Shown here in pieces: positions 10,903-29,580 of a stretch of DNA of 64,000 nt. The position numbers were made by a program, and so were the translations under genes. The stretch comes from Paramecium tetraurelia. Taxonomy: Eukaryota; Ciliophora; Oligohymenophorea; Peniculida; Parameciidae. The notes under the pieces were generated by a model. It was not told where the DNA came from. It made no database searches and was given only the letters and a program-made list of their open reading frames with translations. The number at the start of each line of letters is the position of its first letter. Position 1 is the first letter of the stretch. The stretch lies in contig NW_001798967.1 of NCBI RefSeq assembly GCF_000165425.1, positions 531,657 to 595,656 of the forward strand, given 5' to 3'.

Positions 10903-11545
10903 ATGACAGAAAAAGTTAAAATTCTTATGTTGGGTGAAGGTGCTGTGGGCAAGTCATCCCTTTTAAGTCGTTATGTTGACGAAAAGTTTTCTGAAAATAT
11001 ATAGGCTACATTGGGAGTGGAGTATAGATAGAAAATTCTTATTTAAGGAGAAAGCTAAGTGACTGTTTAAGTTTGGGACACAGCAGGTAATTAAAATTCT
11101 AGAGGTTTAGGTTAAGAAAGATTCAGAGTTATTACTCCTATTTTTTATAGAAATGCTTAAGGGGTGTCTTTAGTTTATAGTGTTATTGATAAAAACTCAT
11201 TTTAATAAGTTTAAACTTGGATTGATAATTTAAAAGAGCAAATTGATTGTGAATAAATCTCCATTGTTTTAGTTGCAAATAAGTGTGATATAGCATAAAG
11301 AGAAGTAACTACTTTGGAAGGGTAGCAATTAGCATAAAAAGTACATTGTTATTCTATTCTAGTATTAAATCAAATATTTTGAGTGCTCTGCAAGAACAGG
11401 GGCTTAAGTAAAGGAAATGTATACAGAATTAGTTTAATAAATCCTTGTTAGACGAGGATAAAATCAAAATTCTCAGAACGGAGAAAAAATTCCAAAAAAT
11501 ATCTAAATTGATGGAGGGGAAACATAACCACAAAAATGTTGTTGA
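10903..11545 (+). CDS. Rab-family small GTPase
   Basis: Membrane-trafficking GTPase. All G motifs are visible: GEGAVGKSS (P-loop), TLGVEYRQK (switch I with Thr), WDTAGQERFR (switch II), NKCD (guanine specificity) and ECSARTG (SAK-type). The C-terminus PQKCC is a double-Cys geranylgeranylation signal. Introns at 11087-11110 (splicing exactly restores WDTAGQERF) and 11341-11362. About 198 residues. It starts 28 bp after the COMMD9 stop on the same strand. The exact Rab subfamily cannot be set by eye. Confidence 0.92.
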
Positions 11546-25463: not shown

Positions 25464-26872
25464 TCATTCAAAGTCTATACTAAATCCAAGATGTTCAATC
25501 AAAGTCTTTTATATTTCTTATTTGTCTTTTCCCAAAAAGATTAGCTTAAATGAATTGCTATAAATTACTTTATCATTCGTCCTTGTAGGTAAGAAAGGCT
25601 TTAACATTTTATAAAATCCCATTACAAAACCAGACATATTAATGATAAACACCTTATTTTATCTCTCTGGAAAAAACTGTAGCACCATATTCAAAAGGCT
25701 TTTGGTCATTTGGAGATCGAAATTGGAAAAGCCAAATCCATCTACATCTAAAATGGTAATATAGGAATCTACGAATCCTTTGCAAGATCTACAGACATCC
25801 TCTAGAAAACCGATGAAATACCATTTATATCTCTCGAGATCTCTAAATATTTTAAATGAATAATTACATTTTATCAGGTTACAATTTAGACTGCTTTGTA
25901 TATACAACTTATCTACCACACTTGCTTTCCCCCACAATATCCAAGATTCCTTTAAATTCTGGAAATTATTTTGCCGATAAACGATTGATTCTGTGTTGTC
26001 TTCTCCATTCCTAAGATTAATAAATATATCATACAATCCAATTCATTATGGCTGCATATGAAGCATTGATATCGAATCTAAAATTACAAATTGCTATAAT
26101 TACACCCTCTTGCAATGAGCCATCTTATCAAAGTATTACTTGAGAGCTTGTATTCACTTACAATTTAAAATAGTTTATAATAAATATCTTAGTCTTCTTA
26201 ATCTAACTAAGTTACTCTATCATTTAGTAAGAATATATCATACCGATAATGTTCATTGATATATTTTTCATCAGTTTCTTTAGGTTAAAATTCATTTGTG
26301 TCATTATAGTTGCATACATATTTATTTAATTCTTCCTCATCTTCATCTAAACGTAGTTCTGATTAGATCGATTATTTTTCAAATAATTCTGCTACTTGTA
26401 AACTTGAGTAATTAATAATGCATTCTCGTAAAAACTTTAAAAAACTATAATTTGGTTATGATTTTAGATGTTATAGGATTGTTAAAGTTGTTCTTGATTT
26501 TTCTACTTTATAAAACACTAATTGTTAAACCATAATCCAATCATCATACTTTCTGTGAATTCCTTAAGTGGATTCATTAATTTTGAAATAGTGATATTTA
26601 TATTTAAGAGAATATATTTAATTTTTGAATTTGCATCTCTCAATTAAGCTTCCATCAGATAACTATTCTTTCCCAATTCTAAAATATTAGACTCTCTCAT
26701 CCAATGAGGAATTCAGAGGGAGTAGGAAATCAAAAACTATATCACCTCTTTAGTAGAAGCTATTTGTTCCTGTATAAAATATTTTCAAATTTGGCAATTA
26801 TTTAGATTAGATCCAATGCATTTTTTAGCATTATTTGAGAGTCTAAAGGAATTCCTGTTCTTGTTAATTCAT
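25464..26872 (-). CDS. CRAL-TRIO (Sec14-like) lipid-binding protein
   Basis: Hydrophobic-ligand transfer domain. With introns the frame reads LIRWLIARGFDINASYAAIM then NWIEWRRQHRI (CRAL-TRIO N-terminal helix), GESKCGRQVVY, TILDVDGFGFSNFDLQMT (Sec14-type D.xGx), LLNMVLQFFPER, KVFIINMSGFVMGFYKMLKP and FLPTRTNDKVIYSN, typical of the lipid-binding gate region. The stop is TGA 25464-25466. The N-terminal 250 residues (NLKIFYTGTNSFYQRGDIVF and an acidic stretch LDEDEEELNKY) have no recognised domain. Start at 26872 keeps a long open frame; a nested Met at 26700 in another frame would need a 32-bp intron. The 5' end lies 45 bp from the U4 snRNA 3' end on the same strand. Confidence 0.83.
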
Positions 26873-26916
26873 AATTTAAATATATATATAAATTTCGTTT
26901 GTTTAATTTATTGAGG

Positions 26917-27056
26917 GTGTGAGTCTTTCGACCCTTCAGAAATTGGTGAACGACTTCACAAGGAAGTCGTACACTCGCATTGGAGTAGTTTTCAATTAGC
27001 AATCTCGCGTATCCGTTGGTACGTCACTTACAGCGATATTGCCCCTGAATAAGGAT
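26917..27056 (-). ncRNA. U4 spliceosomal snRNA
   Basis: The minus strand matches U4 snRNA element by element. The conserved stem I/central segment GATTGCTAATTGAAAACT is almost identical to human U4 (TATTGCTAATTGAAAACT). The 5' part has AGGGGCAATATCGC (human AGTGGCAGTATCGT) and a 5' stem-loop with TGA...GGA spacing of the k-turn that binds 15.5K/SNU13. The central hairpin is CGACTTC-loop-GAAGTCG with a 5-nt loop, followed by the Sm site AATTTCTGA and a 3' stem GGGTC-GAAA-GACTC. Length, about 140 nt, fits U4. The GC content is far above the surroundings. The ends are estimated from the alignment to within a few bases. A protein frame runs through it on the same strand by chance. Confidence 0.93.
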
Positions 27057-27188
27057 AAATCTCCAACAATTCAAGTTTAATTTATATAATGAAGGCAATT
27101 ATTTAATTTTATGGGTTTCTATTCTCTAATTCATTTAAGTTAATTTTAGTAATTATATATAATAAACCTAATATTGGTCATTTTAATG

Positions 27189-27272: not shown

Positions 27273-27878
27273 AAATCATTCCAATTCAAGTAAATTCCAA
27301 ATTTTGTTAACAATATCTCTTTCAATGTTAAAGTGATAAATCTATAAATCCAAATTAGAATATTTATTAACAAATACAATCAAATCCGTAAACAAGAAGA
27401 TCCAAATTAATAAAATCTAAAATTGTTGAATTGATTGCATCTATTTTCCCCTTGTTTTAAAATCATAATCTCTTATTGCTATATATCATACAATTCTATA
27501 TACATAATTTCAATAGAATGATGAAAAAATAATTTGAAATTCTATTTCAGAATAATGAATAATCAATGATAAATGTTTCTTTAGATTTTGATGGATCATT
27601 TCTACAGTTTCATCTAAACCTTATCAATATGAAAAATTTATTATAGAATTTCTATTTATGTATATTTAGTTCCAGAACTAATTGTAACTTACACATTCTT
27701 ATATTTAATTATAAATTGGCATAGCATTAGCTAATTTAAAGATAAACTAATAATTTTCTGGTATAATATATTTTCTATTTTTCTTTAATTTAAATCTAAT
27801 TAATTATAATGACTTTGGGCTTTAAGAAGGTTCTGGAAAATGAAGGAAAAAAATATTATTTTTTTTAAATTATTTCTA
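27273..27878. other. AT-rich intergenic region
   Basis: About 600 bp with no frame of protein-like composition and no further RNA-like structure seen. It contains the promoter region of the TPR-DnaJ gene. Confidence 0.45.
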
Positions 27879-29580
27879 ATGGAAGTGGAACACAATACAG
27901 GAATAGATAGACTTAAATAATAGGCAGAAGATCATAAAAATAGAGGAAACGATTATTTTAAAAGATCATAATACTCTAATGCTGCAGAGGAATATGAAAA
28001 AGCTATTGGTATCAATAATCTTCCTATTTTAGAACTTTGTCCAAATGAACCGAATTATTATGGTAATAGGGCTGCTTGTTTCCTTCAAATGAAAAAGTAA
28101 TTTTTATTAATAATCTATTTAGGTATAAAAAATGTTTAAAGGACTGTGAAAAGGCTCTAAGCTTAGACCCCAATAATGCTAAGTTTCTAAGAAGAAAGGC
28201 TTTGAGTTTGTAACATTTGGGATTGTTAACAGAGGCCAAGCCTATTTTCGGGCAAATTGTTAGTTTAGATAATAGTGAGTAATCCATCAAGGAACATAAA
28301 CAAATTAACGAATTAATCTATAATCTGTAGTAGACACAACAGAAATTGGATGCCAAATAATATAAAGAAGCTTTATATTATATGGAAAAAGTTGCAAAGG
28401 AAATTCCAGATGCTGTCGACATTCAAATTCTGAATTGTGAATGTTTAGCCAGAACAGGCAATGCTAATTAAGCTTAGGAATAATTAAGACTAATTTAGGA
28501 GAAGTTTGGGACAAGGGCTGAATCATCTTATTTAAAGGGTCTAATAGAATTATATGGAGGAAACCCAGATAAAGCAAAATCTATCCTTTAAGAGGGAGTA
28601 AGACAAGATTACAATAACAAAAAATGTTTATTAGCTTTTCAAATGGCTAAAGATTCAGATAATTATAAATCTAAAGGAAATGATTGTTTAAATTCAAATA
28701 AATTTAATGAAGCTATTGATTATTATACCAAAGCGTTGGAAGTGGATTCTAACAATTTTAAATTCAATTCCATAATTTATGCCAATAGAGGATTGGCTTA
28801 TTAGAAATTGAAGGATCATAGAAAGGCAGTCGATGATTTTGATAAATCAATTGAATTGAATGACCGATACTTCAAAGCCTATTTGAGAAGAGGAGATTCA
28901 AGATAAGAATTAGGAGATTTGGATGGTGCATAAGGTGACTATTAGAAAGTGATGGAGTTAGATTAAGGATCAATATAACAAATGAGATAGAAGATAAATG
29001 ATATTACAAGAAAACAGAAACAATTATCGAAGAAAGATTATTATAAAATCTTAGAAGTTGACAAAAATGCTTCAGATACAGATATTAAGAAAGCATATAG
29101 AAAATTAGCTTTGCAATGGCATCCAGATAAAAATAAAGAGAGTGAAGAATAAAAAGTATAATATTTATAATATTATTATAGAAATTAGCTGATAAGAAAT
29201 TCAGAGAAATCGCTGAGGCATATAGTGTGTTGAGTGATAAATAGAAAAGATAGCAATATGATATGGGAGTAGATCCAAATGACCCAATGGGAGGAGCAGG
29301 AGGATTTGAAACAAATATTGATCCCTCCCAAATATTCAAGATGTTCTTTGGTAGTGAAGGAGGAGCAGACTTTGGTTTTGGGAACATGGCAGGAGGAGAA
29401 TTTCCAGGAGGATTTAAAACTGTTTTTACAACTAATTTAGGAGGAATGGGTTAGAACATGAGAGGAGGACAAGGATTTCCATTTTAATTTGGAGATTTCT
29501 CATAGTAAGGAGGAGCAGGATTTTCTGGATTTTCATTTCCAGGGATGCAATTTACATAATAGCAACAAAGAAGAAAATGA
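27879..29580 (+). CDS. TPR and DnaJ co-chaperone (DNAJC7-like)
   Basis: Links Hsp70/Hsp90 clients. Starts [12 protein letters not shown]. Tetratricopeptide repeats fill the first 370 residues ([95 protein letters not shown]). A J domain follows: [31 protein letters not shown] with the HPD motif, then [20 protein letters not shown]. The C-terminus is Gly/Phe-rich (GGEFPGGF) with a Gln/Arg end. Introns at 28097-28122 and 29156-29181. The architecture matches DNAJC7/TPR2; a long Gly-rich tail is also seen in other J proteins. Confidence 0.92.

Follow-up and report, generated by a model that had tools for sequence, protein, structure and literature searches.

A full-length U4 snRNA gene on the minus strand

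The window, by which we mean the whole 64-kb stretch of DNA analysed here, carries a U4 snRNA gene on its minus strand at 26917..27056. An Infernal search (cmscan with Rfam 15) confirmed this identity, which a sequence-only reading of the DNA had proposed. RF00015 (U4) matched positions 26922-27056 of the minus strand with 85.5 bits and an E value of 1.3e-17 (gathering score 46), and the match covered the model in full length, from position 1 to 138 of 138. This was the sole match at or above the gathering score across the whole 64 kb, and ARAGORN found no tRNA in the window. The 3' end of the gene is uncertain by about 5 nt, since it lies at 26922 according to the model and at 26917 according to the sequence-only reading. 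The fold of the RNA had a z score of -2.49, which was equalled by none of 200 dinucleotide shuffles.

The U4 landmarks listed in the sequence-only reading were all present: AATTGAAAACT, a 5' stem-loop with a k-turn, a central hairpin, an Sm site and a 3' stem. From the 5' end onward, the RNA runs through AUCCUUAUUCAGGGGC, the k-turn stem-loop, UGCUAAUUGAAAAC, the central hairpin, AAUUUCUGA and the GAAA-capped 3' stem. The 5' stem-loop (27005..27037, minus strand) was delimited by the RF00015 alignment and structure. Applying the k-turn motif rule to it gave a predicted k-turn at 27009-27031, read from the sequence as GUA-AGU-GA-CGU / ACG-GA-UAC; AGU-GA faces GA here, with the stems GUA/UAC and CGU/ACG on either side. 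The central hairpin (26946..26974, minus strand) has the form GUG-U-ACGACUUC-CUUGU-GAAGUCGU-U-CAC in both the RF00015 alignment and the fold, and its arms in DNA letters are ACGACTTC/GAAGTCGT. Next comes the Sm site AATTTCTGA (26936..26944, minus strand), recognised from the sequence and aligned to AAUUUUUGg in RF00015. Compared with this model consensus, the AAUUUCUGA of the window departs at the sixth base and at the last position. The same form is common to both U4 copies of the genome, and the U1 genes carry the same AAUUUCUG. As in members of the U4 family, the Sm site is followed by a 3' terminal stem, GGGUC-GAAA-GACUC (GGGTC-GAAA-GACTC in DNA; 26921..26934, minus strand), which was called from fold and sequence.

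The block AATTGAAAACT at 26987-26997 has a chance expectation of 0.40 in the window and is not significant by itself. Therefore, the U4 call leans on the full covariance model. Together with the 5' stem-loop, central hairpin, Sm site and 3' stem, the full-length match and the partners of stems I and II described below make up the likeness to RF00015. The U4 of the window is an ordinary member of its family.

Pairing potential between U4 and U6

When the U4 RNA was co-folded with the U6 RNA of locus L003, one of the three U6 genes found, stems I and II both formed in the canonical way, which answers the pairing check suggested in the sequence-only reading. Stem II paired U4 1-8 with U6 69-62 and U4 10-16 with U6 60-54, which places its U4 strand at 27041..27056 on the minus strand. 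Stem I paired U4 56-63 (26994..27001, minus strand) with U6 51-44 in eight consecutive pairs, one of them G-U. The two stems flank the 5' stem-loop of U4 and thus give the canonical Y shape. The 8-base runs U4 1-8 and U4 56-63 were ungapped against all three of the three U6 genes.

The energy of the duplex with the L003 U6 was -45.1 kcal/mol (shuffle mean -31.2, sd 4.5). With 6 of 1000 shuffles as good, this energy is not extreme on its own. The longest ungapped match between the two RNAs was non-canonical: U4 116-127 with U6 1-12, 12 nt long for L003 and 11 nt long for each of the two remaining U6 genes. It joins the Sm and 3'-stem region of U4 to the 5' hairpin of U6, and we consider it probably a chance match. 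An 8-mer of the central hairpin loop of U4 was also able to pair with U6 61-68, and the minimum-energy fold of U4 alone ties up part of the U6-pairing 5' end inside U4.

Shared signals in the flanks of snRNA genes

Two short elements in the flanks of the U4 gene recur at other snRNA genes. Upstream lies the PSE/USE-like element AAACCCATAAAAT (27106..27118, minus strand), in which AACCCATA starts at -61. Across the genome, AACCCATA starts between -59 and -67 in all 16 of the 16 spliceosomal snRNA genes found; the whole window holds four occurrences of it on both strands. Downstream lies the 15-mer TTAAACAAACGAAAT (26892..26906, minus strand), a candidate 3' box. This 15-mer is shared across the U1, U2, U4 and U5 genes and stands 10-18 nt beyond the model 3' end in every one of the 13 found. 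None of the three U6 genes has it; they end in T tracts instead. The gene class of the window U4 is thus marked by an element that lies just past the RNA end and is absent from U6.

The exact 15-mer has 20 copies in the 69-Mb genome, compared with 0.86 expected under an order-3 Markov model of the window. Thirteen of these belong to the snRNAs, one to a U3 snoRNA gene and six to copies of an orphan RNA, so that all of them adjoin an RNA gene or an orphan copy. The U3 gene (L038 1521-1761, minus strand, on contig C201) matched the ACEA U3 family RF01848 with 99 bits, and has the 15-mer downstream and ACCCATA upstream at -61. U3 is not spliceosomal and shares only these gene signals with U4.

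The exact 14-mer TTAAACAAACGAAA had 22 occurrences in the genome, and its reversed control had 7, close to the 7.84 expected for the reversed 14-mer by the same order-3 model. Two of the 22 (L027 and L030) lack the last T, and no upstream element was found within 500 bases of either. When up to one mismatch was allowed in the 15-mer, the 75 sites found were at background level (96 for the reversed control), and therefore only the exact form is informative. The 55 one-mismatch sites were judged together rather than one by one; the two that could be linked to an RNA gene are the orphan copies on contig C193, and one-mismatch forms were rejected as 3' boxes.

In animals, SNAPc recognises the PSE of snRNA genes for either polymerase, and Integrator recognises a 3' box at polymerase II genes only. 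The position of the 15-mer, its restriction to Sm-class snRNAs and U3 with U6 left out, and the upstream element shared by all fit this logic. The 15-mer may function as a 3' box of the Integrator type.

Alternatively, U4 may be real while the 15-mer works at the DNA level, as a termination or promoter element, for example for the protein gene 19 bp further on. The 15-mer does sit between U4 and the next ATG, and a candidate 3' box is known here from its position alone. But the same 15-mer also trails the U1, U2, U4 and U5 genes without exception, as well as the U3 gene and the six orphan copies, and its exact form occurs nowhere else in the genome. Being confined to RNA loci, it therefore tracks the RNA gene class and not one neighbour. 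We consider such a DNA-level role rather unlikely, and keep the candidate 3' box as our preferred reading. The spacing itself is short at both U4 copies: from the candidate 3' box to the next same-strand ATG there are 19 bp in the window (26872-26906) and 23 bp at the second copy, on contig C200.

A second U4 copy and the snRNA gene set of the genome

The genome assembly searched comprised 69,072,372 bases in 231 contigs. It contains at least two U4 genes, the window copy and one at C200:589310-589444 (83.5 bits). The other major snRNA genes number at least three for U6, four for U1, four for U2 and three for U5; these copy numbers are lower bounds, because the family searches scored the best candidates only. 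The window U4, itself conventional, completes the ordinary major-spliceosome RNA set of the genome.

The two U4 RNAs showed four differences in the 135-nt match. Two of them lie in helices, where a standard pair is retained: a C-G pair of the central hairpin changes to U.G, and the G.U in the 3' stem of the window copy is A-U in the C200 copy. The remaining two lie in the internal mismatch of the central hairpin and in an unpaired position before the hairpin, and a fifth difference lies just beyond the 3' stem. The helices are kept in the C200 copy. We also compared the flanks, taking 300 bp from the 3' side of U4 and 200 bp from the 5' side, and they aligned everywhere but in the final stretch of the 5' flank.

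The presence of two copies leaves room for the idea that the window gene is a decaying or silent one while the C200 copy does the work. However, the window copy scores slightly above the C200 copy (85.5 vs 83.5 bits), the few differences between the two leave the helix pairs intact, and both flank signals are intact as well, so that a pseudogene seems very unlikely. An RNA of the minor spliceosome has even less in its favour. U4 and U4atac have the Y-shaped pairing in common, but the U4atac model RF00618 had no match at E<=1 among the best 48 of 3732 candidates genome-wide, while RF00015 matched the locus in full length. The U4atac reading is disfavoured at the level of the sequence models, and we regard it as highly improbable.

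That the region codes for a protein and resembles an RNA by accident is hardly conceivable and is already refuted: open frames do cross parts of the U4 gene, as is usual where TGA is the sole stop, but the RF00015 match has an E value of 1.3e-17, no ATG-led minus-strand frame spans the gene, whether the ciliate or the standard code is used, and the C200 copy differs at only four positions in the 135-nt match. The base composition is 28% GC, and the open frames were read under the ciliate code; these two traits and the size of the genome suggest a Paramecium. The 66-codon same-strand ORF described in the sequence-only reading was not recovered. The minus-strand frames touching U4 measured 353, 93, 83, 61, 44, 28 and 11 codons from stop to stop in the ciliate code, and at most 73 codons in the standard code; a length of 66 codons occurred in neither.

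Overall, the locus very probably holds a functional ciliate U4 gene, whose flanks carry the two signals of the genome's snRNA-class genes. Four lines of evidence point to this: the match to U4 in sequence and structure, the potential to pair with U6, the second copy with its matching flanks, and the position and specificity of the flank elements.

The neighbourhood of U4 appears to have been duplicated along with it. A protein frame of 332 codons lies downstream of U4 (25874..26872, minus strand), with its ATG 19 bp past the candidate 3' box; it had no match in Pfam at E<=0.1. Over 248 bases, the frame in the window and its C200 counterpart showed 18, 3 and 26 differences at codon positions 1, 2 and 3 respectively, a bias as expected of a duplicated gene that would still be coding. 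We infer that the two U4 copies and their neighbours are a pair from a whole-genome duplication.

The U2 genes form two pairs, on contigs C153 and C191 (L010-L013). The members of each pair lie about 65-67 kb apart on one contig, and the pairs have identical RNA scores and near-identical promoters. The two pairs are likely paralogous segments.

On the other side of U4, the plus strand of the window at 27840-29233 encodes TPR repeats followed by a DnaJ domain, apparently split between frames. Paramecium is a ciliate with tiny introns, and small introns are perhaps the cause of this split.

A possible expression mechanism and its relation to known systems

The flank signals matter more than the U4 gene itself. 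The exact 15-mer is a handle for finding small-RNA genes of polymerase II in ciliates, and for asking whether, in these organisms, a 3' box defined by its sequence is where Integrator cleaves. In the mechanism that we propose, a SNAPc-type factor would bind AACCCATA about 60 bp upstream of U4, and RNA polymerase II would transcribe the gene. The 15-mer, as the 3' box, would guide an Integrator-type complex (IntS11) to cleave. For U6, with a T run at its end and no 15-mer, the same upstream element would serve transcription by polymerase III. The mature U4 would bind Sm proteins at AAUUUCUGA and Snu13/Prp31 on the k-turn, and would pair with U6, keeping U6 inactive until the spliceosome is activated. 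Sm binding, Snu13/Prp31 on the k-turn and the inactive state of U6 are established for U4 elsewhere.

Candidate factors for such a mechanism are encoded in the genome. A SNAPC3 domain was found (PF12251, 49.5 bits). There were two Beta-CASP matches, one IntS11-like (C121) and one CPSF73-like (C10). For the IntS11-like fragment, of which 363 codons were read, the best score was 331 bits with IntS11 vs 172 bits with CPSF73; the other match gave 368 bits with CPSF73 vs 245 bits with IntS11. The support for Integrator comes from this IntS11-like gene fragment, the sole subunit searched.

The signals of the U4 gene are alike to the metazoan 3' box and PSE in several respects. The downstream element follows closely on the RNA end at Sm-class snRNA genes and is absent from U6, one shared upstream element lies near -60, and relatives of SNAPC3 and IntS11 are encoded. 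The difference is one of sequence. The metazoan 3' box reads GTTTN0-3AAARNNAGA, whereas the element here is a single 15-mer that hardly varies and has 20 exact copies.

Part of this gene set may already be on record, since the Paramecium ncRNA genes reportedly described by Chen et al. in 2009 (RNA) may already include the window U4 and perhaps the orphan RNA. U4 in a Paramecium is already known. In the parts consulted, a 2026 paper on Paramecium bursaria describes U1, U2, U4, U5 and U6 found with Rfam models and no U11/U12, and contains neither sequences nor flanking elements (PMC12862383). Likewise, a 2022 paper on Stentor describes all five major snRNAs, found by Rfam models, and no minor snRNAs (PMC9505925). 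A Paramecium annotation pipeline uses Rfam for non-coding genes (PMC5485702), and PMC6461891 deals with the alga Cryptomonas paramecium. Among the titles listed from the open-licence PMC literature, none dealt with a 3' element of ciliate snRNA genes or with the orphan RNA.

An orphan RNA family carrying the same signals

The 15-mer has already led to an RNA family without a name. Eight copies were found: one each on contigs C33 and C185, a tandem pair on C57, two on C187 and a divergently oriented pair on C193. They were covered by loci L018, L020, L021, L031, L032, L033 and L045. The reversed control of the search pattern had no matches. The exact 15-mer is present in six of the eight copies, and the C193 pair carries TTAATCAAACGAAAT. 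The upstream AACCCATA is likewise exact in six of the eight, with variants in the C33 copy and the C193 minus copy. The conserved core comprises ATCCAAGTTTAAACC and two hairpins, the longer of which ends in a loop region reading TCCTATTCCGGAA. The distance between the upstream and downstream elements suggests a length of about 95-110 nt. We put it at about even chances that U4 belongs to a small gene set with AACCCATA upstream and a near-invariant 15-base 3' box, and that the same code exposes an apparently unreported eight-copy family of structured RNAs of this length, transcribed like snRNAs.

In the consensus of six copies, the core was paired with the 3' box and no compensatory change was seen. 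In the consensus of all eight, 97.7% of the cells pair, a value as high as in none of 500 shuffles, and none of 500 shuffles reached the covariation score. Four base pairs were changed on both sides between two subgroups, compared with none at each of six slid registers. These four double-sided changes were reached by 34 of 500 shuffles, and all of them rest on the two related C193 copies. The number of further pair types was reached by 327 of 500 shuffles. When three copies were folded singly, 3, 0 and 18 of 200 shuffles were as good, the third fold not being significant.

We compared the orphan with known RNAs. No Rfam match touched it at E<=1 in the six copies scanned, and the C193 pair gave only a U2 fragment (E 3.8) and a bacterial RNA (E 6.8). 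With no convincing match, a known Rfam family was rejected. U6atac appeared at E 0.55 in L030, below its gathering score and away from the box. Nor was an antisense guide to snRNAs or U3 convincing: between three of the eight copies and a single gene for each of U1-U6 and U3, perfect complementarity reached 10 nt at most (U5), and otherwise 5-8 nt. A loose Sm-like pattern occurred in one of the eight copies, weakly and in the variable part, and was not a clear Sm site. We would guess at an RNP RNA of the nucleus or nucleolus, transcribed by polymerase II.

The orphan-RNA model R1 also matched the window twice. The match over U4 at 26892-26980 (E 0.058) was taken as an effect of the shared 3' box plus hairpin, and the one at 11164-11222 (E 0.045) as chance.

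The 5' hairpin of the orphan is variable in sequence. In the C193 minus copy (L045 1590-1607, minus strand), it matches stem-loop I of U2 at 17 of 18 positions, a likeness that none of 500 shuffles equalled and that was absent from the two other copies tested. It looks as though this copy had received a piece of a U2 gene by exchange.
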